Assembly (NCBI GenBank): GCA_902595795.1
Contig: CACJRK010000005.1
Span: 1 to 64,000 of the forward strand
DNA length: 64,000 nt
Direction: 5' to 3'
From: an uncultured Pelagibacteraceae bacterium
GTDB taxonomy: Bacteria; Pseudomonadota; Alphaproteobacteria; Pelagibacterales; Pelagibacteraceae
Shown here: positions 11,578 to 32,882 of the stretch, in pieces
Numbering within the stretch: the stretch's first letter is position 1
Layout of the letters: every line of letters starts with the position of its first letter
Position numbers and translations under genes: made by a program
Notes under the pieces: model-generated
What the model saw: only the letters and a program-made list of their open reading frames with translations
Told to the model about the DNA's origin: nothing
Databases searched by the model: none

Positions 11578-12129
11578 TTAAAAATTTTTAATAAAATAAA
11601 CTCTTGTATCAATTCCTGTGCTTAAAAAACTTAAAGCTTCTCCGCTTACAGTAATACTTTCATTTACACCAACATTATTTCCACTAACCTTGAAACCTGC
11701 AAAACACTTATTTTTTTCCTTATCCCATTTAACAAAAGTTTCATCAATTTTATTTCCATTAATTGTATATAATTCATGTGCTCTAAAATTTAAAAAATTA
11801 GCACCCATAATTGCTCTTTGTGGAATTAATTTTGTAACTTTACATACCTGCTCATATACTTCGTCTGTTAATTTATAATGATTAGTTCCATCAAATGATA
11901 CTAGTATTCCTGAGGGTAATTTAGATATCAGTTCGCTTAGTTTTTTTTCTTCTGCAATTCTTTCTTCCTCTAATTTCATTCTTTTAACTAAATCGTCACC
12001 TTGTCCAAAAATTCCATTTAAAATGCTAAAAGATACAATTACTATTAGAGTGATAAATACAAGACCAATAAATTGTCTCAAAGACTCAGGTAAATATTTA
12101 ATTTTATTAATATAATTTTCTTTAGACAT
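11578..12129 (-). CDS. Unknown membrane-anchored protein, one N-terminal helix
   Basis: I do not recognise this 183-aa protein. The start was taken as the ATG whose A is the last base of the MORN-gene stop (TAATG at 12129); an upstream in-frame start would overlap that gene by 27 nt. One hydrophobic helix lies at about residues 21-41 (FIGLVFITLIVIVSFSIL). It is followed by a short charged, probably coiled-coil segment (KRMKLEEERIAEEKK) and a soluble ~120-aa domain with two cysteines. The topology suggests a cytoplasmic N-terminus and a periplasmic domain. It lies between the binding protein and the ATPase of the TMAO-type transporter. Confidence 0.72.
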   Translation of the reverse strand: MSKENYINKIKYLPESLRQFIGLVFITLIVIVSFSILNGIFGQGDDLVKRMKLEEERIAEEKKLSELISKLPSGILVSFDGTNHYKLTDEVYEQVCKVTKLIPQRAIMGANFLNFRAHELYTINGNKIDETFVKWDKEKNKCFAGFKVSGNNVGVNESITVSGEALSFLSTGIDTRVYFIKNF

Positions 12130-12506
12130 TATTCTTGTAACTTGCCGTTCTTCCAAATACCTGTTTTTTGTTTTCCATCAGCCCAAGTAAATGTTCCTTG
12201 ACCATTCATAAAACCATTAGCCCACTCCCCTTCATAAGTAGAACCATCGGGAAATGTTAAAATTCCTTCTCCATTCCATTCGCTGTTTTTAAATTCACCT
12301 TTGTAAATATAACCATTCGGCCAGGTTTCTACTCCTTGACCATTTTTTTTAGTTCCTACCCATTCGCCTTCATAAGTAGTTTTATCTGTATATACCCATT
12401 TGCCATAACCATTTTCACAATTTCCCTCTTTGCACCCAGTGCTACGTGCCAAAGCAACAGATGAAATTAGTAAACTTAGTAAAATACATATAAAATATTT
12501 TTTCAT
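12129..12506 (-). CDS. Secreted MORN-repeat protein
   Basis: The 125-aa product has a signal peptide (MKKYFICILLSLLISSVALA). About four MORN repeats of ~23 residues follow, each ending in a YxGEW/F-type core: TYEGEWVGTKKNGQG, YKGEFKNSEWNGEG, TYEGEWANGFMNGQG and a last degenerate one, TGIWKNGKLQE. MORN repeats form beta-hairpin ladders used in membrane association or protein contacts; no catalytic residue is seen. Two cysteines sit just after the signal peptide (GCKEGNCENG), perhaps as a disulfide. It shares a base with the next gene (TAATG). Its position inside a transporter operon is not explained by any function I know. Confidence 0.8.
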   Translation of the reverse strand: MKKYFICILLSLLISSVALARSTGCKEGNCENGYGKWVYTDKTTYEGEWVGTKKNGQGVETWPNGYIYKGEFKNSEWNGEGILTFPDGSTYEGEWANGFMNGQGTFTWADGKQKTGIWKNGKLQE

Positions 12507-12540
12507 ATTTATATTTTACACAAAATTCACTAAAAAAAAA

Positions 12541-13002
12541 TCAGACTTTTCCATCATTTTTGATGCATGAATAAATAGAAATATGTTTTTCTGCATTATC
12601 ACTTTTTATATTTTTTGTAATTTCGTGAACAAGCTCTCCAGTTTTTCTAGTTATAATACCTGACTCTGAATAATTATTTTTTTGATCAATTGATTTAAAC
12701 AAAACCACATCTTTATTTACAATTTTAACTTGTAGTTTTGTAGATTCTGAGAGAAATAAAGATAATCCTTTAATAAAAAGAGTTTCAGGTTGTTTTGATA
12801 AAATTTCAAATTTCTCTATACTTTTTTCATTTAAATCTTTAGCAAAAAAAGTTTGATAATTAAATTCTGAATTTTTAATTATTTTTTTTTCTAAATTACA
12901 AATATACTTAAGATTAATATTTTCCCTTATACTTATATCTTTTGCTAAAGATTGACTAAAAAATATCAAACTAATAAATATGCTTAAAAAATATTTGATC
13001 AT
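12541..13002 (-). CDS. Unknown exported protein
   Basis: I do not recognise this 153-aa protein. I chose the ATG at 13002 rather than the in-frame one at 13032, because the downstream start gives a clean signal peptide (MIKYFLSIFISLIFFSQSLA). The upstream one would place its first codons inside a C/G-rich hairpin. The mature part is Lys/Ser/Asn-rich with two cysteines (one near the start, one in IYSCIKN at the end) that could pair in the periplasm. It follows tmoX, separated by a terminator-like stem-loop, and precedes the MORN protein gene. Confidence 0.65.
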   Translation of the reverse strand: MIKYFLSIFISLIFFSQSLAKDISIRENINLKYICNLEKKIIKNSEFNYQTFFAKDLNEKSIEKFEILSKQPETLFIKGLSLFLSESTKLQVKIVNKDVVLFKSIDQKNNYSESGIITRKTGELVHEITKNIKSDNAEKHISIYSCIKNDGKV

Positions 13003-13021
13003 TAAATATGATTTAAAAAAA

Positions 13022-13047
13022 ATCCCCCCCAACGGAGTTGGGGGAGA
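13022..13047 (-). terminator. Terminator-like stem-loop after tmoX
   Basis: CCCCCAAC (13026-13033) pairs with GTTGGGGG (13037-13044) around a 3-nt loop. Read on the minus strand, the stem is followed by a run of T (complement of the A run at 13015-13020). It sits 25 bp past the tmoX stop and before the next gene start. This looks like an intra-operon attenuator or 3'-end stabiliser, which would let the binding protein be made in excess of the rest of the transporter. Confidence 0.75.
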
Positions 13048-19953: not shown

Positions 19954-20062
19954 AAATGATATCAATTAATCACAATTTAATTGTATTAAAAATATATATA
20001 TTTTTTAGTACTATAAATAATACTTTCACTACCTATCCTTTTTGTGCATAGTTCTCTCACAT

Positions 20063-21391
20063 ATGTCAAGTTTACCAAAAAAAGCTAAAGTAGTAATAAT
20101 TGGTGGTGGTATCCATGGCTTGAGTACAGCTTGGAAATTATCTGAGACATATAAAAATGCTGGAGACATTGTAGTTTTAGAAAAAAAAGATACTGCTGCA
20201 GGCGCAAGTGGAATAGCTTGCGGTGTAATCAGAAACAATTATTTTCAGCCTGCAATGAGAGAATTGATGGCTCATTCAGTTTCAGTTTGGGAAAGTGATC
20301 CAAAAGCATTTAAATATAATGCAGTTGGTTATTTGCAAATATCACCAGAAGTGATGCACGAAGATGTTGCAACAATTTATGAGCAACAAAAAGCAATCGG
20401 GTACGACTCTGAATTTATCGAAGGTGAAAAAGATTGTATGAATTATATGAAAGGGATGTTTGATGATTGGCAAGCTCAGGGGATCACATCAGTACTTCAT
20501 GAAAAAAAAGGTGGATACGCATTTAACAAAGATTCTATTAAAGCACTTGAGAATAAATCTACTTCTAATGGAGTACAAGTTATTAAAGGTGTGAGAGTAA
20601 ATGGATTTAAAAGAGGTAGTAACAGTAAAGCAGTAACTGGAGTTGAAACTGATAAAGGAATCATAGATTGTGAACAAGTAGTTATTGGTGCAGGACCATG
20701 GGCTAGAGATTTTTGGAACATGTTAGAGCTACCAAAAACTGCAAACATTAAAGGTAAAGATGGCAAGATGCATACAACTGATATGTGGACGTATTGGATG
20801 TTACAAGAAGGTGTAATCGGTGTTGAACCAGATTTTTTAAAAATGAATAATGGTAAAGCTCCACCTGTAATTCATGTTGATTCCACTGCTCCTTTATATT
20901 CTGATAAAACAAAAAAATTAATCACAGATAAAATTTGGGGAATTTATTATAAACCAGATATAGAAGGTTTGGGTGTTCAAGGAGGTACTTCTCCTTATAT
21001 CGTTGATAAACACTTTGACCAAGTCAACGTGGATCCTTATGGAATTGAGTCACCAGAGTACCAGACAACAGAAGCGTTTAATGATATGTGGTGTTCAGCA
21101 TTGGCTCATTGTCAAAAAAGATTTGAAGGCAAATCTGATTTATATAGAAAAGGACCTTCAGGTGGTCTTGGATGTATGACACCAGATTCTTTTCCAATCT
21201 TTGACAGATTTTTAGAAAATGTTTACATGATTGCTGACGCTAACCATGGTTATAAAATGATTGGTGTTGGTGAACTTGTTGCAAAAGAAATTCTTGGAAC
21301 TGAGAGTGATTTATTAAAACCTTTTAGATTCAACCGTTACGAGAAGGGTGAACTTCACCCAACTTCGAATAGCCCCTTCCCTTGGAGTTAA
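20063..21391 (+). CDS. FAD-dependent amine oxidoreductase, sarcosine oxidase beta/DAO family
   Basis: From the ATG at 20063 the product has 442 aa; an earlier TTG at 20042 is in frame but less likely. The dinucleotide-binding motif GGGIHG is at residues 14-19, with VVLEKKDTAAGASG after it, VVIGAGPWARDFW in the middle and a C-terminal YMIADANHGYKMIGVGELVAKEI. This is the D-amino-acid-oxidase fold that includes SoxB, dimethylglycine and glycine oxidases, but the sequence is clearly divergent from soxB in this window. It leads the plus-strand run with glutamine-synthetase-like and glutamate-synthase-like genes, so an N-alkyl amino acid (for example an N-alkylglutamate) is a plausible substrate. 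That is inference. Confidence 0.8.
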   Translation: MSSLPKKAKVVIIGGGIHGLSTAWKLSETYKNAGDIVVLEKKDTAAGASGIACGVIRNNYFQPAMRELMAHSVSVWESDPKAFKYNAVGYLQISPEVMHEDVATIYEQQKAIGYDSEFIEGEKDCMNYMKGMFDDWQAQGITSVLHEKKGGYAFNKDSIKALENKSTSNGVQVIKGVRVNGFKRGSNSKAVTGVETDKGIIDCEQVVIGAGPWARDFWNMLELPKTANIKGKDGKMHTTDMWTYWMLQEGVIGVEPDFLKMNNGKAPPVIHVDSTAPLYSDKTKKLITDKIWGIYYKPDIEGLGVQGGTSPYIVDKHFDQVNVDPYGIESPEYQTTEAFNDMWCSALAHCQKRFEGKSDLYRKGPSGGLGCMTPDSFPIFDRFLENVYMIADANHGYKMIGVGELVAKEILGTESDLLKPFRFNRYEKGELHPTSNSPFPWS

Positions 21392-21511: not shown

Positions 21512-22981
21512 ATGACTGATCTAGAAAAGCATGTTAGCCAACCAGGACGTGCTAAATTAGTAAAAGACGTTAGAGCAAAAATTAAAGAATTAGGAATAAC
21601 TTATATTTATTTCCAGTTCATTTCAGTTACTGGAAGAGTTGTTGGAAAAGGTATACCAGCAGACCATTGGGAAAGAACTGCAGAAAAAGGTTTTCAATTA
21701 GTTTATGGATCCACTGCAAACTTATTCTTAGATCGTCACAATAATTATATCGGATACGGACCAGAGGCTATGGAGCTTGTAGGTATTCCTGATCCTGAGA
21801 CATTTGTACAATTACCTTGGGATAAAAGAGTAGGAAGAGTATTTTGTACATGTTTTAGAAATAGAGAAGAAAGAGAAAATCCAGGTGGTCATTTAACTTC
21901 AGACTGTAGAGGAAATTTAAGAATTTTCATGGACGAATTTAAAAAGAAACATGGACTTGAATTAAGAGTAGGTACAGAACCAGAAATGATGTGGTTGACT
22001 AGAAATGAAGATGGTTCTCCTACTGGGAAGGGTTTTTCCAAACCATTCTGTTACCATATAGACCAATTTGAATCTTTGAGACCTGTATTTATGAAAGTTA
22101 TTGAATATTCTAATGCCATGGGTCTAGACATGATTCAAGGTGACCATGAAGATGCTCCAGGTCAATTAGAGCTTAACTGGACTTATGATAACGTTTTACG
22201 AAATGCAGACAGATTATCCACTTATAGACAAATATGTGCGCAAGTTGCTAGAGAACACAATTTAATAGCTTGTTTTATGACAAAACCATTTATGGGAGTT
22301 TCAGCAAGTGGATGTCATACAAATATGTCTTTGTGGAAAGGTGGAAAGGTTAAAGTTAATAGACTTGGACATAAATCTTTACCGGGAGTAGACGGTGTAT
22401 TTAGTTATGTTGAAGGTGGAACTAATACTTTTATGCCTGATACAAAAGATATGCAAATGCCAGGTAAAATTGGTTTACAATCAATTGCAGGTATCATGAA
22501 ACACTTGCCAGCATTAACAGCTCTTGGATCTTCAACTGTTAATTCATACAGAAGATTATGGGACCAAGGATTTTGGGCTCCTGTTTATGCAGACTGGGGA
22601 TATCAAAACAGAACTTGTGGTTTAAGAGTTTCCGCTCCAGGAAGATTTGAGTATAGATCAGTAGACTCTATGCATAATCCTTATCTTTTAGGTGCTGCTT
22701 TGTTGAAAGCTTGCGATGAAGGCATAAGTAAGAAAATGAAACCAGCAGCTCCAGAGTCTAGAAACATTTATGAAGCTCAAAAAGCTGGTAAAGATGTTAA
22801 AAAACTACCATTAAGTTTAGGTGAAGCTTTAGATAGACTGGCAGAGGATGAAGTAATCAAATCTGCAATGCCAGATGAAATGTATAAAGTCTTCCATTGG
22901 TACAAAAACGATGAGTGGGAAAGGTTTCTTGGTGCAACTACGCAATGGGATCTGGATACTTATCTAGATTGTCTACCGTAA
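21512..22981 (+). CDS. Glutamine synthetase-like ligase, divergent from GmaS/GlnT
   Basis: This 489-aa enzyme keeps glutamine-synthetase catalytic segments: metal Glu pair GTEPEMMW, GDHEDAPGQLELNW, SASGCHTNMSLW (the NGxGxH-type loop), NSYRRLWDQGFW and RFEYRSVDSMHNPYL. It is about 50 residues longer than the type III/GmaS-like paralogue at 31557. A very strong ribosome site (AAGGGGGG) precedes the ATG. It sits between an FAD oxidoreductase and a glutamate-synthase-like trio that includes the amidotransferase. The likely reaction is ATP-dependent gamma-glutamylation of ammonia or an amine, the product being used by the following complex. True glutamine synthetase GlnA is different in length and context. 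Confidence 0.83.
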   Translation: MTDLEKHVSQPGRAKLVKDVRAKIKELGITYIYFQFISVTGRVVGKGIPADHWERTAEKGFQLVYGSTANLFLDRHNNYIGYGPEAMELVGIPDPETFVQLPWDKRVGRVFCTCFRNREERENPGGHLTSDCRGNLRIFMDEFKKKHGLELRVGTEPEMMWLTRNEDGSPTGKGFSKPFCYHIDQFESLRPVFMKVIEYSNAMGLDMIQGDHEDAPGQLELNWTYDNVLRNADRLSTYRQICAQVAREHNLIACFMTKPFMGVSASGCHTNMSLWKGGKVKVNRLGHKSLPGVDGVFSYVEGGTNTFMPDTKDMQMPGKIGLQSIAGIMKHLPALTALGSSTVNSYRRLWDQGFWAPVYADWGYQNRTCGLRVSAPGRFEYRSVDSMHNPYLLGAALLKACDEGISKKMKPAAPESRNIYEAQKAGKDVKKLPLSLGEALDRLAEDEVIKSAMPDEMYKVFHWYKNDEWERFLGATTQWDLDTYLDCLP

Positions 22982-23011: not shown

Positions 23012-23956
23012 ATGTGTGGAATAGCAGGTTTAATTCATAGAGGAAAATCTTCAAATGTAGGAAGTGAACTTCAGGGTATGCTTCAGGCATTAAAACATAG
23101 AGGAGAGGACTCAACTGGTTACGCTTTATATGGTGATACAGATGGTAAAAATTTTATTATGCGATTCAAAGTGGGTGAAAATGTAGGAGAAGGAAGTTCT
23201 TCAATAATGGAAGATGTTTCAGTTTATGACGAAAGAAAAAAAGTTGTTGATCAAACTTTAGCTGAAATGGGTGCTAAAATAATTAAAGAGGAAAGAACTC
23301 TACCCTATTCTTTAAGATATGAATTAGAGTACGATGCTAAAGATCTTCTTAATTTTTCACAAACAATTGAGGCTATTCCCGGTGTTGAAATCCTTTCAAT
23401 GGGTAAATCATTAGAGGTTATTAAAGATCTTGGAAATGCTAAAGCAGTTTGCGATAGATACTCTTTAGATAAACTTGTAGGAACGCACGCTATAGGTCAC
23501 GCAAGAATGGCCACAGAATCTGGTGTCGATATTAAATCAGCTCACCCTTTTTGGGGTTATCCTTTTAGTGATGTTTCAGTAGTTCATAATGGGCAACTTA
23601 CAAATTACTGGAATAATAGAAGAGTATTAGAAAACAAGGGAATGAGGTTCATGTCTGAATGTGATTCAGAGCTTATTGCAGTTTATATAGCCCAAAAAAT
23701 GAGAGAAGGTGCAACCCTAGAAGAAGGAATGAAAGATTCTTTATTAGGTCTTGATGGTGTATTTACTTATTTTGTTGCAACAAAAGACTCGTTAGGTATG
23801 GCCAAAGATACAATGGCTGCTAAACCATTAGTGCTTTATGAATCAGATGATTTAGTTGCAATGGGATCTGAAGAAATTGCAATTAGATCAGTATTACCAC
23901 AAGAAATTGAAACATATGATCCATTTGATGGGGAGGTGAAAGTATGGCAAATCTAA
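23012..23956 (+). CDS. Class II glutamine amidotransferase subunit of a split glutamate-synthase-like enzyme (GlxB/MgsA-like, copy 1)
   Basis: This 314-aa Ntn-type amidotransferase has the catalytic N-terminal cysteine (MCGIAGLIHRG), LKHRGEDSTGYA, GHARMATES, VVHNGQLTNYWNNR and SECDSELIA. This is the order of the glutaminase domain of glutamate synthase. In the family it hydrolyses glutamine (or gamma-glutamylmethylamide) and tunnels the amine to the FMN subunit. It follows the ligase gene by 30 bp and overlaps the next gene by 13 nt. It is a paralogue of the gene at 28624 and is about 20 residues longer. Ammonia versus alkylamine specificity cannot be read here. Confidence 0.85.
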   Translation: MCGIAGLIHRGKSSNVGSELQGMLQALKHRGEDSTGYALYGDTDGKNFIMRFKVGENVGEGSSSIMEDVSVYDERKKVVDQTLAEMGAKIIKEERTLPYSLRYELEYDAKDLLNFSQTIEAIPGVEILSMGKSLEVIKDLGNAKAVCDRYSLDKLVGTHAIGHARMATESGVDIKSAHPFWGYPFSDVSVVHNGQLTNYWNNRRVLENKGMRFMSECDSELIAVYIAQKMREGATLEEGMKDSLLGLDGVFTYFVATKDSLGMAKDTMAAKPLVLYESDDLVAMGSEEIAIRSVLPQEIETYDPFDGEVKVWQI

Positions 23957-24798
23957 AAACTGTATCGAAAAAATCAAAAGCCCAGTCGATGGGTATGCAT
24001 ACCGAAGTACTTACAGGAAGAACACAACAGAAATTTTTTAATCCGGATGAGGCTGAAAACTTTTACTATTTTGGGACTTATGATGTTGATTTCAACAAAA
24101 GAACTGAACTAGATGTCATAGATATGACTGCACCTGAGGCAAACAAAGAAATCGATAATTTAATGAGTCAAGGTTATGGGACAATTGTAATAAAAAACCC
24201 TCAAGGAAAACATAGTCTAGGTGTTGGTATCTTAAATAAATTAAATTTAATTTTTGAGGGAAGTTTAGGTTACTTTGGTATGGGTTCTTGCGATGGTCCA
24301 ATAGTTAGAATCAATGGAAGAGTTGGTTGGTCATGCGCAGAAAATTTAATGGCTGGCAAAGTAGTAATCGAAAAGAATGCTGGATCTTGTTTCGGTGCAG
24401 CAATTAGAGGTGGTGATTTAATTTGCAAAGGTAGTGTTGGTGCCAGAACTGGTATTGATATGAAAGGTGGGACAATCATAATTGGTGGTGATGCTGGAGC
24501 TTTTACTGGCTTTATGATGCAAAGAGGTAGAATTATTATCCTTGGAAACGTTGGTATAAACCTTGGCGACAGTATGTACGATGGGACAATTTTCGTAGGT
24601 GGAGAAATAGGTTCTTATGGTAGTGATGCTGTAGATGCAGAATTAACATCAAGCGACCAAGATTGGTTAAAAAGAAAATTAAAAGTTGCAGAAATTGGTG
24701 AAAATTTTGATGTAAGTAAAATGAAAAAAATTGTAGCAGGTAAAAAACTTTGGAATTATGACAATTTGGAACCTACAGAGAAGAAGGGAGCAATTTAA
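23944..24798 (+). CDS. GXGXG-domain subunit of the split glutamate-synthase-like enzyme (GlxC/MgsB-like, copy 1)
   Basis: The 284-aa protein is a parallel beta-helix of the glutamate-synthase C-terminal (GXGXG) type. Repeating turns such as GSLGYFGMGSCDGP, GRVGWSCAENLMAGK, GSCFGAAIRGGDL, GSVGARTGIDMKGG and GGDAGAFTGFMMQRG cover about residues 85-230. It has an extra N-terminal ~50 residues compared with copy 2 (227 aa). The start overlaps the previous gene by 13 nt and the end shares one base with the next start. The domain has a structural role, connecting the amidotransferase and FMN sites. Confidence 0.85.
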   Translation: MANLKTVSKKSKAQSMGMHTEVLTGRTQQKFFNPDEAENFYYFGTYDVDFNKRTELDVIDMTAPEANKEIDNLMSQGYGTIVIKNPQGKHSLGVGILNKLNLIFEGSLGYFGMGSCDGPIVRINGRVGWSCAENLMAGKVVIEKNAGSCFGAAIRGGDLICKGSVGARTGIDMKGGTIIIGGDAGAFTGFMMQRGRIIILGNVGINLGDSMYDGTIFVGGEIGSYGSDAVDAELTSSDQDWLKRKLKVAEIGENFDVSKMKKIVAGKKLWNYDNLEPTEKKGAI

Positions 24799-26210
24799 TG
24801 CCTAAGAAAAAAAATAAAAAAGTTAAAAAAAATGGAAAAGGTGTTGGAGGAAAAGCAGACGTCCATGCTCATGAAGAAGGTAAAAGAAATAAAAGTTTAT
24901 TGGGACACAACGCTATTTTTACTCCTGAAGTAATAGACGATATTCATATTAAATCTCAATTAGGCAGATACAGAATGCGTGGAATGGCATTAATGAAAAA
25001 GATTCCTACTTTTGATGATTTGGTATTTTTACCTGGAACACTAACTAGATTTGTAATTGAAGGTTACAGAGAAAAATGTGAAACAAAAACTGTAATTGGT
25101 CCAAGATGTGAAAACCCAATAGAGTTAGATATTCCTGTATATATTACTGGTATGAGTTTTGGTGCATTATCTTACGAAGCTAAAACTGCTTTAGCAAGAG
25201 GAGCTACTATGGCTGGTAGTGCTACATGTTCTGGTGAAGGTGGAATGATACCAGATGAGAGAAGATATTCGGAAAAATGGTATTATCAATGTATTCAATC
25301 AAGATATGGTTTCAATCCTCATCATGCACAATTAGCAGATGGTATTGAAGTATTTATTGGACAGGGTCAAAAAGTTGGAATGGGTGGACACTTAATGGGT
25401 CAAAAAGTAACTGACCAAGTTGCTGAAATGAGATCGTTACCATCTGGTATTGACCAAAGATCTCCAGCGAGACACCCTGATTGGCTAGGACCAGACGATT
25501 TAGCTCTAAAAGTTGAAGAGTTAAGACAATTAACTAAAAATAAAGTCCCTATTCAATTAAAATTAGGTGCATCTAAAGTTTATGATGATGTACGTATGGC
25601 AGCAAAATGTGATCCTGACTCTATTTATTTAGATGGAATGGAAGGATCTACTGGAGCTGGTCCACATATAGCTGCTGCAAACACTGGTATTCCTGGTATT
25701 GCTGCAATTCGAGAAGCTAGAAGAGCAATCGACGATGTTGGTAAAACTGGAAAAGTAACATTAATTTATGCTGGTGGTGTAAGAGATGGTGCTGATATGG
25801 CTAAAGCTTTAGCTCTTGGAGCAGATGCAATAGCTATCGGTACTGGATCTATGATTGCATTAAATTGTAATAAAGATATTCCAGAAGCAAACTTTGAAAA
25901 AGAAATGGGAGTAAAAGCTGGTGAATGTTATCACTGCCATACTGGAAGATGTCCAGTAGGTGTTGCTACTCAAGATCCAAAATTGAGAGCAAGGTTAAAT
26001 CCAGATGATGCTGCATTAAGAGTTTACAATTATCTTCATTCAATGACTTTAGAGGCTCAACTTTTAGCTAGAGCTTGTGGTAAAACAAATATACATTCAT
26101 TAGAGCCTGAAGATTTAGCTGCATTAACATCTGAAGCTTCAGCTTTGGCAAAAGTTCCTTTAGCTGGAACTAACTATACAGTTGGAGTTGATAACTATCA
26201 CAAAATATAA
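24798..26210 (+). CDS. FMN-binding glutamate-synthase-like subunit with Fe-S cysteines (GlxD/MgsC-like, copy 1)
   Basis: This 470-aa protein matches the FMN domain of glutamate synthase: YITGMSFGALSYEAK, GEGGMIPDERRYSEKW, IGQGQKVGMGGHLMG, QLKLGASKVY, GAGPHIAAANTG, YAGGVRDGADMAKALALGADA and GTGSMIALNC. Cys377, Cys380 and Cys385 (ECYHCHTGRCPVGVATQ) are in the position of the [3Fe-4S] ligands of glutamate synthases. The paralogue at 30194 has none of them. The first ~35 residues form an unusual lysine-rich tail (PKKKNKKVKKNGKG), similar in composition to the start of the 138-aa protein encoded next. The family reaction transfers the amine to 2-oxoglutarate. Confidence 0.86.
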   Translation: MPKKKNKKVKKNGKGVGGKADVHAHEEGKRNKSLLGHNAIFTPEVIDDIHIKSQLGRYRMRGMALMKKIPTFDDLVFLPGTLTRFVIEGYREKCETKTVIGPRCENPIELDIPVYITGMSFGALSYEAKTALARGATMAGSATCSGEGGMIPDERRYSEKWYYQCIQSRYGFNPHHAQLADGIEVFIGQGQKVGMGGHLMGQKVTDQVAEMRSLPSGIDQRSPARHPDWLGPDDLALKVEELRQLTKNKVPIQLKLGASKVYDDVRMAAKCDPDSIYLDGMEGSTGAGPHIAAANTGIPGIAAIREARRAIDDVGKTGKVTLIYAGGVRDGADMAKALALGADAIAIGTGSMIALNCNKDIPEANFEKEMGVKAGECYHCHTGRCPVGVATQDPKLRARLNPDDAALRVYNYLHSMTLEAQLLARACGKTNIHSLEPEDLAALTSEASALAKVPLAGTNYTVGVDNYHKI

Positions 26211-26221
26211 GGATAATAATT

Positions 26222-26638
26222 ATGGCAAAAAAAAAGGGTAAAAAGATAGTTAAATCAAAAGCAAAAGAGATTAAAGGTCAGTTAGGTAAAAAAGCAGAAA
26301 CAGCAAGAGAAAAAATGATCGGCCAATCAATTGGTTACCGATATGATGTAAATCTTTTACCTGACTACAAAAAACTCACGCCATTTCTAAAAAAATATAT
26401 AGAAGCAATGGGATGGGATGACTTAAACTGGTTAGAAGATGTTCATATGGGATATGAAGAAGATAGACCCGCAGTATTTTGTAGAAATGCAAATGGTTGG
26501 GTTACTATTCCAGCATCAATTAAACTTCCAAACAATCAACAAGATAGAGACATGATTGCAAGAGAACTTTTAGTTAAGTTCCAAATGTCTCCAAAGCACC
26601 CTCTTGTTGATTTGAAAAAAGCTTATTTAAAATTTTAA
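26222..26638 (+). CDS. Unknown 138-aa protein with lysine-rich N-terminus
   Basis: I do not recognise this family. Residues 1-35 are very Lys-rich (MAKKKGKKIVKSKAKEIKG), much like the tail of the preceding FMN subunit. Residues ~45-138 look like a compact soluble domain with several Trp (MGWDDLNWLEDVHMGYEEDRP, NANGWVTIPASI) and one Cys. There is no signal peptide or membrane segment. It starts 11 bp after the FMN subunit and is followed by a strong stem-loop before amt, so it belongs to the glutamate-synthase-like operon. A role as an extra subunit or assembly factor is inference from position only. Confidence 0.75.
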   Translation: MAKKKGKKIVKSKAKEIKGQLGKKAETAREKMIGQSIGYRYDVNLLPDYKKLTPFLKKYIEAMGWDDLNWLEDVHMGYEEDRPAVFCRNANGWVTIPASIKLPNNQQDRDMIARELLVKFQMSPKHPLVDLKKAYLKF

Positions 26639-26663
26639 GTTTTCAATTATCAGTTGATATTTT

Positions 26664-26695
26664 TTAAAAACCTAGTGTTCGTACTAGGTTTTTAA
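26664..26695 (+). terminator. 13-bp perfect stem-loop between the glx-like operon and amt
   Basis: TTAAAAACCTAGT (26664-26676) pairs perfectly with ACTAGGTTTTTAA (26683-26695) around a 6-nt loop. The descending arm supplies five T but there is no longer T tract after it, so termination may be partial. It would separate or tune amt expression relative to the upstream enzyme genes. Confidence 0.65.
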
Positions 26696-26762
26696 GCATT
26701 TTATGTTTGTATCGAATCATAAAATTTAATAGGGTTTCAAAAAACTAATATGGAGAGAGAAT

Positions 26763-28163
26763 ATGACTGATCAGTTAGGTGCTCTTACAACCATATTTAC
26801 AGAATTTTACTACTGGGTAACAGTAGTACTGATGTTTTTAATTCACGTCGGTTTCTGTATGTATGAAGTTGGAGCTTCTCGATACAAACACCATCAACAT
26901 ACTCTAATGAAAAATACGATGCTGATACCTTTGGTAACAGTAACTTGGTTTTTCTTTGGTTGGTGGATTTACTGGGCATTCCCAACAGGACCGGGAATTG
27001 CACCTTCAATAATGAATGAAAGTACCGCGCTAATCACAGATGAATCTGCTTTTAGTGCTACATGGTACACAGCAACAAGTGAGTTAATGGCTGTCAATCT
27101 AGGAGATCACATTTCTGGTGTTTTCTGGGCTGCTTTTCTATTATTCTCATGGACTGCTGCGTCTATTGTTTCAGGAGCCATCATTGAAAGAATTACAACT
27201 TTTGCATTTGGTATATTAGCCATAGCAATTGGTTCTGTATTTTGGACAATTGATGCTGCTTGGGGATGGCACTTTGATGGATGGATGCTTAAAATTTTAG
27301 GATATCATGATGCTTATGCATCAGGAGTAATTCACGCAATTGCGGGTGGATTTGCTTTAGGTGTTCTTATGGTTTTAGGACCAAGAATTGGTAAGTTTTC
27401 ATCAAGTGGTGAACCAAGAAACATTGGACCAAGAAATCCTTGGCTAGTTACAGTTGGATTATTTTTAATTTATACTGGTTTCTGGGGATTTTATGCAGCG
27501 TGTAACATACCAATCTTTGATCTTGGACCTGAATACGGGATGGAAGGTGTAACTTATTGGACAGCTACAAACATATATGTAACCCCTACTACACTTAGTG
27601 GTATTACTTTTAACTTCTTGATGTCGTTATCAGGAGGATTATTAGCTGGTTATTGGATTGCTAAAGGTGATCCTTTCTGGACATACTCAAGTGGACTAGC
27701 AGGTGTTATCTGTGCTTCAGCTGGAAATGATTTATATCACCCAATTCAAGCAATGATAATTGGTATGATTGGTGTTGTAATTGCATATAAACTACATTAC
27801 TGGGTTGAACGTAAGTTCAAAATTGATGATGCAGTTGGTGCAGTAGCAGTACATGGATATGCTGGATTTGTTGGTCTAGTAATTTGTGGTTTTGTTTTAA
27901 ATGGTTATCCGTCATCTGGTTACAGTGTTGGAGCTATGTGGGACGGAACTACTTATGCTACTATTAACCCATTAGGACAATTTCTAGGAGCAATAATTAT
28001 GTTCGTAGTTCTTGGACTAATACCAGGCTATATCATAGCTAAAGTGCTTAACGGAATGGGTAAATTAAGAATCCCACGTGAAGTAGAAATAGCTGGATTA
28101 GACTACGAAATGATGGAGTCTGCTAAGGAAGATGAAAAAGCAGTTTCATCTGCAACCAGGTAA
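26763..28163 (+). CDS. amt: Ammonium/methylammonium transporter, Amt family
   Basis: This 466-aa membrane protein has about 11 predicted helices. Both Amt pore histidines are in place: GVIHAIAGGFALG and AVAVHGYAGFVGL. Other family segments are SWTAASIVSGAIIERIT, DAAWGWH and NFLMSLSGGLLAGYW. The C-terminal tail after helix 11 is short and acidic. GGAGAGAG precedes the ATG. No PII (glnK) gene is adjacent, unlike many amt loci. Position directly after the amine-glutamylation genes suggests uptake of ammonium or methylammonium for that pathway (inference). A 74-aa membrane protein follows after 11 bp. Confidence 0.92.
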   Translation: MTDQLGALTTIFTEFYYWVTVVLMFLIHVGFCMYEVGASRYKHHQHTLMKNTMLIPLVTVTWFFFGWWIYWAFPTGPGIAPSIMNESTALITDESAFSATWYTATSELMAVNLGDHISGVFWAAFLLFSWTAASIVSGAIIERITTFAFGILAIAIGSVFWTIDAAWGWHFDGWMLKILGYHDAYASGVIHAIAGGFALGVLMVLGPRIGKFSSSGEPRNIGPRNPWLVTVGLFLIYTGFWGFYAACNIPIFDLGPEYGMEGVTYWTATNIYVTPTTLSGITFNFLMSLSGGLLAGYWIAKGDPFWTYSSGLAGVICASAGNDLYHPIQAMIIGMIGVVIAYKLHYWVERKFKIDDAVGAVAVHGYAGFVGLVICGFVLNGYPSSGYSVGAMWDGTTYATINPLGQFLGAIIMFVVLGLIPGYIIAKVLNGMGKLRIPREVEIAGLDYEMMESAKEDEKAVSSATR

Positions 28164-28415: not shown

Positions 28416-28448
28416 GGGCGCTACTTAGGTGTGGCGCCCTTTTTTTTT
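28416..28448 (+). terminator. Rho-independent terminator closing the 20-28 kb operon
   Basis: GGGCGCTAC (28416-28424) pairs with GTGGCGCCC (28431-28439), with one G-U pair, around a 6-nt loop. Nine T follow at once (28440-28448). This is a textbook intrinsic terminator and the clearest in the window. Confidence 0.92.
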
Positions 28449-28623: not shown

Positions 28624-29508
28624 ATGTGTGGAATTGTTGGAATATATTTGAAAACAAAAAAATTTGAGAAAAATTTAGGTAAAATGTTATCAGGTATGCT
28701 TAACAACATGGAGTCTAGAGGACCAGATAGTGCAGGATTTGCTATATATAAAAATTCAGACAAAAAAGAATATAAATACTCTTTGTGCATAAATAATTTA
28801 GATTTTAGTAAATTTAAAAAAGATATTTTAAAAAAAATTAACAATTTAAAACTAAATCAATACTCAGATCATGTAATTGTAAAGACTACAGAAATACCAA
28901 AAAAATTTATTAAGTTTATTAATATTGAATTCCCTGAAGTTTCTATTGTTGGATATGGACATTCTATTGAAATTTTTAAACAAGTTGGAAACCCAAAAGA
29001 TGTGGTTAAAAAATTTAATTTAGAAAGTTTTAGTGGTACACATGGTATTGGGCACACTAGAATGGCAACGGAAAGCGCAATAACAACTGATGGTTCTCAC
29101 CCTTATTCAACTGGAGAAGATGAATGTTTAGTTCATAATGGTTCTTTATCTAATCATAATAACTTGAGAAGAGAACTTAGGAAAAAAGGAAATGCTTTTA
29201 CTTCTGAAAATGATACTGAAGTTGCTGCAGGTTATGTTTCTAATAGCCTCTCAAATAATAATTCTTTAAAGGATACTCTTGTTTCAGGTCTAAAAGACCT
29301 AGATGGTTTTTATACATTTATAGCAGGAACGAGAAAAGGATTTGCAGTAGTAAGAGATGAAATTGCATGTAAACCTGCAGTTATAGCTGAAACAAAAAAT
29401 TATGTTGCTATTGCTTCTGAATTTCAGGCGATGGCTCATCTTCCTGATGTTAACAATGCAAAAATTTTTGAGCCAGAACCTGGTATTGTGTATTCTTGGG
29501 GAAATTAA
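28624..29508 (+). CDS. mgsA: N-methylglutamate synthase amidotransferase subunit (MgsA/GlxB, copy 2)
   Basis: This 294-aa class II amidotransferase keeps the catalytic Cys2 (MCGIVGIYL), MESRGPDSAGFAIY, GIGHTRMATES, CLVHNGSLSNHNNLRR and TSENDTEVAAGYV. Its length fits MgsA, the subunit that releases methylamine from gamma-glutamylmethylamide or glutamine. It starts the second module mgsA-mgsB-mgsC-gmaS and shares one base with mgsB (TAATG). It is clearly paralogous to the gene at 23012 but more Lys/Asn-rich. The N-methylglutamate pathway assignment rests on the gmaS-type ligase three genes downstream. Confidence 0.87.
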   Translation: MCGIVGIYLKTKKFEKNLGKMLSGMLNNMESRGPDSAGFAIYKNSDKKEYKYSLCINNLDFSKFKKDILKKINNLKLNQYSDHVIVKTTEIPKKFIKFINIEFPEVSIVGYGHSIEIFKQVGNPKDVVKKFNLESFSGTHGIGHTRMATESAITTDGSHPYSTGEDECLVHNGSLSNHNNLRRELRKKGNAFTSENDTEVAAGYVSNSLSNNNSLKDTLVSGLKDLDGFYTFIAGTRKGFAVVRDEIACKPAVIAETKNYVAIASEFQAMAHLPDVNNAKIFEPEPGIVYSWGN

Positions 29509-30191
29509 TGAAATTAGATTTAAAAAAATTAAAGTTAAGACAAGTAAACGAACAATTGCAAAGTTTAGATCGAAAAATAAACGATAGAAATTTTACTATA
29601 ATAAATCCTGAAGGTAATCATGCTGTATGTGCTGGGTTAAATGAAGAATTAAATATAAATATTAAAGGTCATGTTGGATATTATTGTGCTGGAATGAATC
29701 AAAATGCAAATATTACAATTGAAGGCAATGTGGGAACTGGTGTAGCTGAAAATATGATGTCTGGAAAAGTTCATGTGAAAGGCAATGCGTCACAATCAGC
29801 GGGTGCAACTGCTCATGGTGGGCTTTTAATTATTGATGGTGATGCTAGTTCAAGATGTGGGATATCCATGAAAGGTGCAGATATAGTTGTTAAAGGTTCA
29901 GTTGGCCATATGTCAGGTTTCATGTCTCAAGCAGGGAACTTAGTGGTATGTGGTGATGCTGGTGAGGCATTAGGTGATAGTTTGTATGAAACAAACATAT
30001 ATATAAAGGGTAAAGTTAAATCGCTTGGTGCAGATTGTATTGAAAAAAAAATGGATAAAAAGCATATAAAAAAACTTAGTTTACTTTTACAGCAAGCTAA
30101 TATTAAAAATCAAAAAGCTGAAAACTTTAAAAGATATGGATCAGCAAAAAAACTATATAATTTTAAAATAGATAATATTTCTAACTATTAA
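29508..30191 (+). CDS. mgsB: N-methylglutamate synthase GXGXG subunit (MgsB/GlxC, copy 2)
   Basis: I take the ATG at 29508, whose A is the last base of the mgsA stop; an in-frame TTG 12 nt upstream is less likely. The 227-aa protein is a beta-helix with repeats like GHVGYYCAGMNQN, GNVGTGVAENMMSGK, GNASQSAGATAHGG, GDASSRCGISMKGA and GSVGHMSGFMSQAG. This matches the GXGXG domain of glutamate synthase. Size agrees with MgsB (about 225-230 aa). It lies 2 bp before mgsC and would join the glutaminase and FMN subunits in one complex. Confidence 0.87.
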   Translation: MKLDLKKLKLRQVNEQLQSLDRKINDRNFTIINPEGNHAVCAGLNEELNINIKGHVGYYCAGMNQNANITIEGNVGTGVAENMMSGKVHVKGNASQSAGATAHGGLLIIDGDASSRCGISMKGADIVVKGSVGHMSGFMSQAGNLVVCGDAGEALGDSLYETNIYIKGKVKSLGADCIEKKMDKKHIKKLSLLLQQANIKNQKAENFKRYGSAKKLYNFKIDNISNY

Positions 30192-30193
30192 AT

Positions 30194-31522
30194 ATGAAAA
30201 AAAATAACAAAACTCATCCTCGTCAATCATGGACTTTCGATGAATATACAAATTCTGAAATAAGAAGAGCTGCAGCAACAGGTATTTATGATATTAGAGG
30301 TGGAGGATCAAAAAGAAAACTTCCCCACTTTGATGATTTATTATTTTTAGGAGCCTCAATGTCTAGATATCCATTGGAGGGTTATAGAGAAAAATGTACT
30401 ACAAATGTAACTCTTGGAACTAAATTTGCTAAAAAACCCCTTGAATTAGATATACCAATTACAATTGCAGGAATGAGCTTTGGTGCATTGTCAGGACCAG
30501 CAAAAGAAGCTTTAGGAAGAGGTGCAAGTGCTGCTGGTACCTCTACTACTACTGGTGACGGAGGAATGACTCCTGAAGAAAGAGGCCAATCTAAATATTT
30601 AGTTTACCAATTATTACCATCTAGATATGGAATGAATCCAGACGATTTAAGAAAAGCAGATGCAATTGAAGTTGTTGTAGGTCAAGGCGCAAAACCTGGT
30701 GGTGGTGGAATGTTATTAGGTCAAAAAATAAATGACAGAGTTGCAAAAATGAGAACTTTGCCTAAAGGAGTTGATCAAAGATCTGCATGTAGACATCCTG
30801 ACTGGACTGGGCCGGACGATTTAAAAATAAAAATTTTAGAATTACGCGAAATTACAAAATGGAAAGTTCCTATCTTCATAAAAATTGCGGGTGCAAGACC
30901 ATATTACGATACTGCTTTAGCTGTAAAAGCAGGTGCTGATGCAGTAGTGCTAGATGGAATGCAAGGAGGAACGGCTGCTACTCAAGAGGTTTTTATAGAA
31001 AATGTTGGTCAACCTACTTTAGCTTGTATTAGACCCGCAGTAGATGCATTGCAAGATTTAAATGCACATAGAGAAGTGCAATTGGTGATATCAGGTGGAA
31101 TTAGAAATGGTGCAGATGTTGCAAAAGCTTTAGCTCTCGGAGCAGATGCCGTTTCAATAGGTAGTGCTGCAATGATAGCTATAGGTGATAATGATCCTAA
31201 GTGGGAAAAAGAATACAATAAGCTAGGTTCTACAGCGGGTGCTTATGATGATTGGCATGAGGGAAATGATCCAGCTGGAATATCAACTCAAAATCCAACT
31301 TTAATGAAAAGGTTAGATCCAGTTAAAGCTGGTAAAAAATTAACTAATTATCTAAAAGTGATGACACTAGAGGCACAAACACTTGCAAGAGCTTGTGGAA
31401 AAAATAGTTTACATAATTTGGAGCCTGAAGATTTATGTGCACTAACTGTTGAAGCTGCTGCAATGGCTAGAGTTCCTCTGGCAGGAAGCAATTGGATACC
31501 AGGAATAAAAGAAAAAAAGTGA
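30194..31522 (+). CDS. mgsC: N-methylglutamate synthase FMN subunit (MgsC/GlxD, copy 2), no Fe-S cysteines
   Basis: This 442-aa protein has the glutamate-synthase FMN-domain segments ITIAGMSFGALSGPAKEAL, TGDGGMTPEERGQS, VVGQGAKPGGGGMLLGQK, RHPDWTGPDD, FIKIAGARPYYDT, VLDGMQGGTAA and SGGIRNGADVAKALALGADA. Where copy 1 has Cys377/380/385, this protein reads AGAYDDWHEGNDPAGISTQNP with no cysteine, so it should lack the [3Fe-4S] cluster. It would then need another electron route to FMN. In the N-methylglutamate pathway it joins methylamine to glutamate or 2-oxoglutarate. It lies 34 bp before the gmaS-like gene. Confidence 0.87.
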   Translation: MKKNNKTHPRQSWTFDEYTNSEIRRAAATGIYDIRGGGSKRKLPHFDDLLFLGASMSRYPLEGYREKCTTNVTLGTKFAKKPLELDIPITIAGMSFGALSGPAKEALGRGASAAGTSTTTGDGGMTPEERGQSKYLVYQLLPSRYGMNPDDLRKADAIEVVVGQGAKPGGGGMLLGQKINDRVAKMRTLPKGVDQRSACRHPDWTGPDDLKIKILELREITKWKVPIFIKIAGARPYYDTALAVKAGADAVVLDGMQGGTAATQEVFIENVGQPTLACIRPAVDALQDLNAHREVQLVISGGIRNGADVAKALALGADAVSIGSAAMIAIGDNDPKWEKEYNKLGSTAGAYDDWHEGNDPAGISTQNPTLMKRLDPVKAGKKLTNYLKVMTLEAQTLARACGKNSLHNLEPEDLCALTVEAAAMARVPLAGSNWIPGIKEKK

Positions 31523-31556
31523 TTGATACAAATCTTTATTATTCATAAGATTAAAT

Positions 31557-32882
31557 ATGCCAAAAAATTTATCTAAGATAGCAAAAGCTAAAAAAATTAA
31601 ATATTTTTTAATAAGTTTCGTGGATCTTTTTGGTGTTTTAAGATCTAAATTAGTTCCAGCTCAAGCAATTGGAGATATGCAGAAAGATGGTGCAGGTTTC
31701 GCAGGTTTCGCTACATGGCTAGATATGACACCTGCTGATAGTGATATGTTTGGCGTTCCTGATCCTGATAGCCTAATTCAACTACCATGGAATAAAGAAA
31801 TCGGTTGGTTGGCTTCTGATTTATACATGGATGGTAAACCTGTTAAAGCTTCTCCAAGAATAATGCTTAAAGAGCAGATAAAGAAAATGTCACAAAAGAA
31901 ACTTCAAATGAAATCAGGTGTTGAGTGTGAATATTTTCTGATTTCTGAAGACGGACATTCTTTGGCAGATAAAAGAGATATTCAATCTAAACCTTGTTAT
32001 GACCAATCTGCTCTAATGAGAAGGTATGATTTAATAAAAGAAATTTGTGATTGCATGTTAGAAATGGGTTGGAAACCTTACCAAAATGACCACGAAGATG
32101 CTAATGGTCAATTCGAGATGAACTGGGATTATTCAGACTCTCTAATTACTGCGGATAGACATGTCTTCTTTAAATTTATGGTAAAAAGTTTAGCCGAAAA
32201 ACACGGTTTAAGAGCAACTTTTATGCCAAAACCGTTTAGTAATTTGACTGGTAATGGTTGTCATGCTCATGTTTCAGTATGGAATGGAAAAATAAATAAA
32301 TTTTTAGATAATAAAGATCAATTAGGATTAAGTAAGCTAGCTTATAATTTTTTGGGTGGAATCATGAATAACACTCAGGCACTTTCTGCTTTTTTTAATC
32401 CAACTATCAATAGTTATAGAAGAATAAATGCACCACCAACAAAATCTGGAGCAACATGGTCTCCAAGCAGTATTTCGTACACAGGAAATAACAGAACTCA
32501 CATGATTAGAATTCCTGACAAAGGTAGATTTGAGTTAAGATTAATGGATGGTTCAGCCAATCCTTACTTGCTTCAAGCAGGTATTATTGCTGCAGGACTA
32601 GAGGGGATTAATAAAAAATTAAATCCAGGAAAACCCCTACATTGTAATATGTATGAAGATTATAAAAAATATCCTAAATTAAAAAAATTACCGAATGATA
32701 TAAATCAAGCTATTAGTATGCTTCAAAATAGTAAAGCGCTTTCAAAAGCTTTTGGTGCAGATGTCATTAAAAGCTATATTAAGTTAAAAAATTCAGAAAT
32801 TAAAAATTTTAAAACGAGAAATAATTTTAATAAAAGAAAACCAGTGTCACAATGGGAAAAAGATAATACTTTAGATTGCTAA
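31557..32882 (+). CDS. gmaS: Gamma-glutamylmethylamide synthetase / type III glutamine synthetase family
   Basis: The 441-aa protein matches the type III glutamate-ammonia ligase family to which GmaS belongs (about 435 aa). It starts with AKKIKYFLISFVDLFGVLRSKLVP. Catalytic segments are SGVECEYFLIS (metal Glu pair), QNDHEDANGQFEMNWDY, NLTGNGCHAHVSVW, NSYRRINAPP and GRFELRLMDGSANPYL. The reaction is methylamine + glutamate + ATP to gamma-glutamylmethylamide. Three mgs genes precede it and an ammonia-lyase-like gene starts 3 bp after it. GmaS and GlnT differ only subtly, so methylamine specificity is inferred from the mgs context. Confidence 0.87.
   Translation: MPKNLSKIAKAKKIKYFLISFVDLFGVLRSKLVPAQAIGDMQKDGAGFAGFATWLDMTPADSDMFGVPDPDSLIQLPWNKEIGWLASDLYMDGKPVKASPRIMLKEQIKKMSQKKLQMKSGVECEYFLISEDGHSLADKRDIQSKPCYDQSALMRRYDLIKEICDCMLEMGWKPYQNDHEDANGQFEMNWDYSDSLITADRHVFFKFMVKSLAEKHGLRATFMPKPFSNLTGNGCHAHVSVWNGKINKFLDNKDQLGLSKLAYNFLGGIMNNTQALSAFFNPTINSYRRINAPPTKSGATWSPSSISYTGNNRTHMIRIPDKGRFELRLMDGSANPYLLQAGIIAAGLEGINKKLNPGKPLHCNMYEDYKKYPKLKKLPNDINQAISMLQNSKALSKAFGADVIKSYIKLKNSEIKNFKTRNNFNKRKPVSQWEKDNTLDC

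Follow-up and report, generated by a model that had tools for sequence, protein, structure and literature searches.

SAR11 bacteria are among the most abundant marine organisms, and methylamines are an important marine source of nitrogen and energy. The closest described counterpart of the locus analyzed here is the N-methylglutamate (NMG) synthase MgsABC. The M. extorquens mgsABC genes yield N-methylglutamate in P. putida, so three canonical subunits suffice, and the redox cofactor of the enzyme is called unknown in the same work (PMC6237917). In HTCC1062, glxBCD, which belongs to the operon glnT-glxBCD (SAR11_1316-1313), has been proposed as an NMG synthase, on homology only in the part of the source that deals with this operon (PMC3160333). 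We analyzed a window of 64,000 nucleotides from an uncultured Pelagibacteraceae bacterium (contig CACJRK010000005.1, assembly GCA_902595795.1, positions 1 to 64,000) that carries two copies of genes of this kind. Copy 1 is followed by a small gene, ORF138, whose product we consider rather likely to be the fourth component of a variant NMG-synthase-like complex (MgsA1-MgsB1-MgsC1-ORF138) in part of the Alphaproteobacteria, where it would probably serve as a small subunit in fixed stoichiometry.

Organization of the locus

The copy-1 genes at 23012-26210 combine the features of MgsABC, namely a class-II amidotransferase, a GXGXG subunit, and an FMN domain in one operon, in an order that is conserved in the examined neighbourhoods (Table 1). 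The MgsC1 stop codon ends at 26210, which leaves 11 bp before the ORF138 start at 26222, the same spacing as in the initial annotation. The terminator-like hairpin that follows ORF138 is also found in several relatives. A strong terminator-like GC hairpin lies after amt, at 28416-28439, between the copy-1 and copy-2 clusters. Elsewhere in the window, the genes for the substrate-binding and ATPase components of a glycine-betaine-type ABC transporter flank three small unannotated ORFs (11578-13032), one of them with MORN-like repeats (12129-12506).

Table 1. Coordinates of the copy-1 operon, ORF138, and neighbouring features in the window
Feature	Position	Strand	Remarks
FADox1, DAO/SoxB-like FAD oxidoreductase	20042..21391	+	In most cases opens the conserved operon
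GS1, glutamine-synthetase-like ligase	21512..22981	+	GFWAP in place of GYEAP
MgsA1/GlxB-like class-II glutamine amidotransferase subunit	23012..23956	+	PF13522/PF13537; Cys2 nucleophile in sequence
MgsB1/GlxC-like GXGXG subunit	23944..24798	+	PF01493
MgsC1/GlxD-like FMN subunit	24798..26210	+	PF01645; Lys-rich N-terminal extension; Cys357, Cys377-x2-Cys380-x4-Cys385
ORF138	26222..26638	+	ATG start, 138 aa
ORF138 parts			Basic N-terminal tail, ~residues 1-28; conserved core, residues 29-138
Terminator-like hairpin	26663..26696	+	Just 3' of ORF138, between ORF138 and amt
Ammonium transporter (Amt)	26763..28163	+	Adjoins ORF138 in SAR11, not in many other lineages
Copy 2: canonical mgsABC (28624-31522) and gmaS (31557-32882)	28624..32882	+	Without ORF138; MgsC2 (30194-31522) without Cys motif

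Conservation and family assignment of ORF138

ORF138 is a real gene with a core under strong purifying selection. In six comparisons within SAR11, the 110-residue core is 92-97% identical, with dN values of 0.02-0.07 against dS values of 0.4-2.1, and at least 70% identity is retained across 13 alphaproteobacterial loci. The core follows the pattern REK..IGQ.IGYRYDVNL.PDY...TPFL..Y...MGWDDLNWLEDVHMGY....AVF.RN.NGWV..P....LP.NQQDRDM.ARELL.KFQMS..HPL..L..AY.K. Its mean pairwise identity over the 13 loci (0.785) is second only to that of MgsC1 (0.826) and exceeds the values for GS1 (0.734), MgsB1 (0.674), MgsA1 (0.665), and FADox1 (0.662).

ORF138 matched no family in Pfam or NCBIfam at E-values up to 1, and none in Pfam at E-values up to 10 after its homologues were added to the alignment. 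The search of PDB sequences gave no convincing relative; the best match (E 0.008) aligns only part of the core with a larger, unrelated Toxoplasma protein, and we give it no credence. No paralogue was found in the window or in 800 kb of a complete genome of the same genus (G267), and Rfam gave no match in the ORF138 region. We would treat the protein as a new accessory family, without a name so far, whose presence sets apart one variant of an enzyme class already described. Two AlphaFold models, obtained from shallow alignments, reached low mean pLDDT values of 55 and 57 and have nothing in common beyond a secondary structure of one helix, three strands, and two helices (alpha-beta3-alpha-alpha, itself of low confidence). 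With the low-confidence first model, Foldseek (best E-value 0.06) and VIA-align (Z about 5; best Z 5.6, 3.4 Å over 78 residues) gave PH-domain-like matches, which we do not trust. Because the models are of low confidence, we argue neither a fold nor an interface from them.

Genomic association with MgsC1

The distribution of ORF138 was followed in two samples totalling 445 genomes, 385 from the class and 61 relatives, with the window genome in both; copy-1-type MgsC was called at an identity above ~75%. ORF138 is present in 56 of the 57 genomes with copy-1-type MgsC, comprising 37 of 38 in the class sample and all 20 among the relatives. The sole exception is G233, where MgsC1 occupies bases 108-1424 of its contig on the minus strand, so that the next gene would fall beyond the contig end. 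ORF138 is absent from all 38 genomes whose only MgsC is of the copy-2 type (35 in the class sample, three relatives), and the gene was never found without MgsC1 in the 445 genomes. The initial annotation had raised the question of whether the gene always occurs with copy-1-type modules, and these counts answer it in the affirmative.

The association extends to position. ORF138 lies immediately 3' of MgsC1 in all 20 neighbourhoods examined, usually at a spacing of 3-17 bp, and most of them share the gene order FADox1-GS1-MgsA1-MgsB1-MgsC1-ORF138. FADox1 was not found in five of 37 MgsC1-type genomes (G131, G137, G289, G372, G426) and GS1 in one (G289), and ORF138 is kept in all of them; some of these genomes are incomplete, which makes single absences soft. 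No ORF138 was detected in plasmid records, and a phylum sample of 398 genomes gave only two matches, both alphaproteobacterial. The viral collection contains one ORF138 locus (L150, IMGVR_UViG_3300006306_000019), in which phage-like genes are joined in frame to the C-terminal end of MgsC1, followed by a whole ORF138; this record is probably an assembly chimera.

Lysine-rich N-terminal tails

The initial annotation had drawn attention to lysine-rich starts on ORF138 and MgsC1 (tails, here meaning N-terminal extensions) that the copy-2 FMN subunit does not have. The sequences agree: residues 1-30 contain 11 lysines in ORF138 and ten in MgsC1 (24798), the two highest counts among 55 genes of the window, and the copy-2 FMN subunit (30194) has just a short MKKNNKTHP start. 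By the same measure, the orthologues in the 800 kb of G267 rank fifth and tied sixth of 755 genes. We estimate a chance expectation of ~4% for two adjacent genes both this lysine-rich, which makes the pair uncommon without being extreme.

All ~80 Pelagibacteraceae loci, which share descent, have net tail charges of +5 to +9 in MgsC1 and +7 to +10 in ORF138, and at the SAR11 loci both tails stay positive although their sequence drifts. Outside the SAR11 genus, ORF138 of most families has a short start with a DVDxFLKxxGLD motif and a near-neutral to negative charge. Lys or Lys/Ala tails recur on ORF138 in families f32 and f36, where most MgsC1 proteins have little or no tail, and part of family f83 carries basic tails on both proteins; most families carry them on neither. 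Over 18 family means, the tail charges of the two proteins are weakly and not significantly correlated (rho 0.36, p 0.14). In family f36 (L211/G398, L137/G094, L143/G223), the ORF138 tails are histone-H1-like, rich in Lys, Ala, and Pro, and ~60 to 95 residues long. The lysine-rich tail is a lineage-specific, local decoration, and therefore it cannot carry the case for a complex. The suggestion in the initial annotation that a shared basic tail points to common targeting or to one complex is accordingly divided: association in a complex is supported by the co-occurrence with MgsC1, and the shared tail finds no support as a general feature.

Enzyme type

MgsC1 is ~50% identical to copy-2-type MgsC, which places it outside the mgsC type that elsewhere accompanies gmaS and soxBDAG/mgd genes. 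The copy-2 MgsC of the window shares ~83% identity with plasmid copies from S. meliloti and Thioclava, which lie beside glnT/gmaS and soxBDAG-type genes; no ORF138 is annotated at those S. meliloti and Thioclava loci. Every aligned MgsC1 has Cys357, Cys377, Cys380, and Cys385, and none of the four is found in the S. meliloti, Thioclava, or window copy-2 proteins. Because three MgsC2-like proteins of other lineages also retain the motif, without an adjacent ORF138 of their own, the cysteines alone do not explain ORF138.

True glutamine synthetases have a catalytic Glu in the GYEAP loop; in both GS1 and GmaS this residue is a Trp. Although GS1 shares the replacement, its score with the TIGR03105-type GmaS profile is 298.7, and the cutoff is 469.6. 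From the known mechanism of glutamine synthetase, a Trp for the loop Glu points to a larger amine than ammonia, and GS1 is probably a gamma-glutamyl-alkylamide synthetase. The aligned GS1 orthologues also have a Tyr close to where true glutamine synthetases carry the ammonium-site Asp.

GmaS is present in 29 of 37 MgsC1-type genomes, and 12 of these 29 are without canonical MgsC. No candidate NMG synthase other than the copy-1 complex was found in such genomes. G289 (L149) has GmaS in the place of GS1, directly 5' of MgsABC1-ORF138, with sarcosine-oxidase/NMG-dehydrogenase-type genes (MgdABCD-like) nearby; a GbdR-like regulator and SoxBDA-type genes lie on the 3' side, and no FADox1, GS1, or canonical MgsC was found in this genome. 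Where the canonical synthase is absent, MgsABC1 likely makes N-methylglutamate.

Possible roles of ORF138

The co-occurrence of ORF138 with MgsC1 could alternatively reflect inheritance of the operon as a block, or a function in maturation or regulation. A factor dedicated to assembly or cofactor insertion, acting for instance on the FMN or the Cys-ligated cluster of MgsC1 and not staying as a permanent subunit, would display the same co-occurrence and the same position next to MgsC1, and ORF138 does accompany the MgsC type that always retains the cysteine motif. However, almost the entire core is as conserved as the catalytic subunit, which better suits a permanently buried protein, and the motif-bearing MgsC2-like proteins do without a neighbouring ORF138, so we regard a transient factor as unlikely. 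Somewhat more improbable still is a functional pairing of the basic tails of MgsC1 and ORF138 that targets the complex to an acidic partner such as a nucleic acid, membrane, or ribosome. The charge of +5 to +10 maintained on both proteins at all SAR11 loci despite sequence drift speaks for such a pairing, as do the basic ORF138 tails in f32, f36, and f83, but most families have a tail on neither protein, the f32 tail is confined to ORF138, and the two charges do not correlate significantly.

Regulatory roles are less probable again. Cyanobacteria have small, basic glutamine-synthetase inactivating factors, and ORF138, which is small, has a basic disordered tail, and shares an operon with GS1 in nearly all genomes, might inhibit or regulate GS1 in a similar manner. 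Yet it adjoins MgsC1 and not GS1, it is retained in G289, where GS1 was not found, and it is the core that is nearly invariant, with the basic tail absent in most lineages; a GS1 regulator is thus very unlikely. The least probable reading makes ORF138 a nitrogen-uptake regulator that replaces PII (GlnK) at the adjacent Amt. ORF138 is about the size of PII and in SAR11 sits just 5' of amt, but a terminator-like hairpin separates the two genes, for about half of the lineages the neighbourhoods examined showed no amt (as in L134, L135, L138-L140, L146, and L149), and ORF138 has no Pfam P-II match, its secondary structure being modelled, at low confidence, as alpha-beta3-alpha-alpha.

The best explanation is that ORF138 would be an obligate fourth subunit, or a dedicated partner, of the cysteine-rich MgsABC1. 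In the proposed pathway, GS1 or GmaS would form a gamma-glutamyl-alkylamide, most likely from methylamine, and MgsA1 would free the amine. The FMN site of MgsC1, with a cysteine-ligated cluster that has been lost in canonical MgsC, would then couple the amine to 2-oxoglutarate to give N-methylglutamate, which may be oxidized by FADox1 or MgdABCD. ORF138 might hold the catalytic subunits together or offer a docking surface for an electron partner, and its lysine-rich tail would be a dispensable, lineage-specific electrostatic extension. We infer that ORF138 is a physical subunit, that methylamine is the substrate, that MgsC1 holds an Fe-S cluster, and by which route electrons pass. A broader proposition is that SAR11 and numerous other Alphaproteobacteria assimilate methylamine through a hitherto unrecognized four-subunit class of N-alkylglutamate synthase, which would have a Cys-ligated cluster and depend on a small subunit with a new fold; this is tentative and, in our judgment, rather doubtful.

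The MgsC1 variant, with its cysteine motif and extra subunit, provides a direct handle on the redox cofactor of NMG synthase. If the fourth subunit is required, efforts to express glxBCD by itself could be unsuccessful, many of these cells would use something other than the canonical NMG pathway, and ORF138 would be a strict genomic marker that separates the two enzyme types in metagenomes.

Comparison with known systems

In glutamate synthase (GOGAT), GltB is a single polypeptide that works with GltD or ferredoxin as its partner. The GltB structures 7mfm, 6s6s, 2vdc, 1ea0, and 1llw match the FMN domain of MgsC1, and the Cys-rich PVGVATQ region corresponds as well; in the PDB, ORF138 gave no match to GltB sequences. 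Judging from gene numbering, SAR11_1312 would presumably be the ORF138 of HTCC1062. The glnT-glxBCD operon of that strain has the gene order of copy 1, glnT and then glxBCD, and the part of the source that describes it presents three synthase genes and mentions no fourth component (PMC3160333). Canonical MgsABC (GlxBCD) has the same three subunits as copy 1 in the same order (amidotransferase, GXGXG, FMN), and a glutamine-synthetase-like ligase is found alongside in both. In contrast to the canonical enzyme, copy 1 has the cysteine motif, longer N-termini on MgsB and MgsC, a different ligase (GS1) that is placed upstream, and ORF138.
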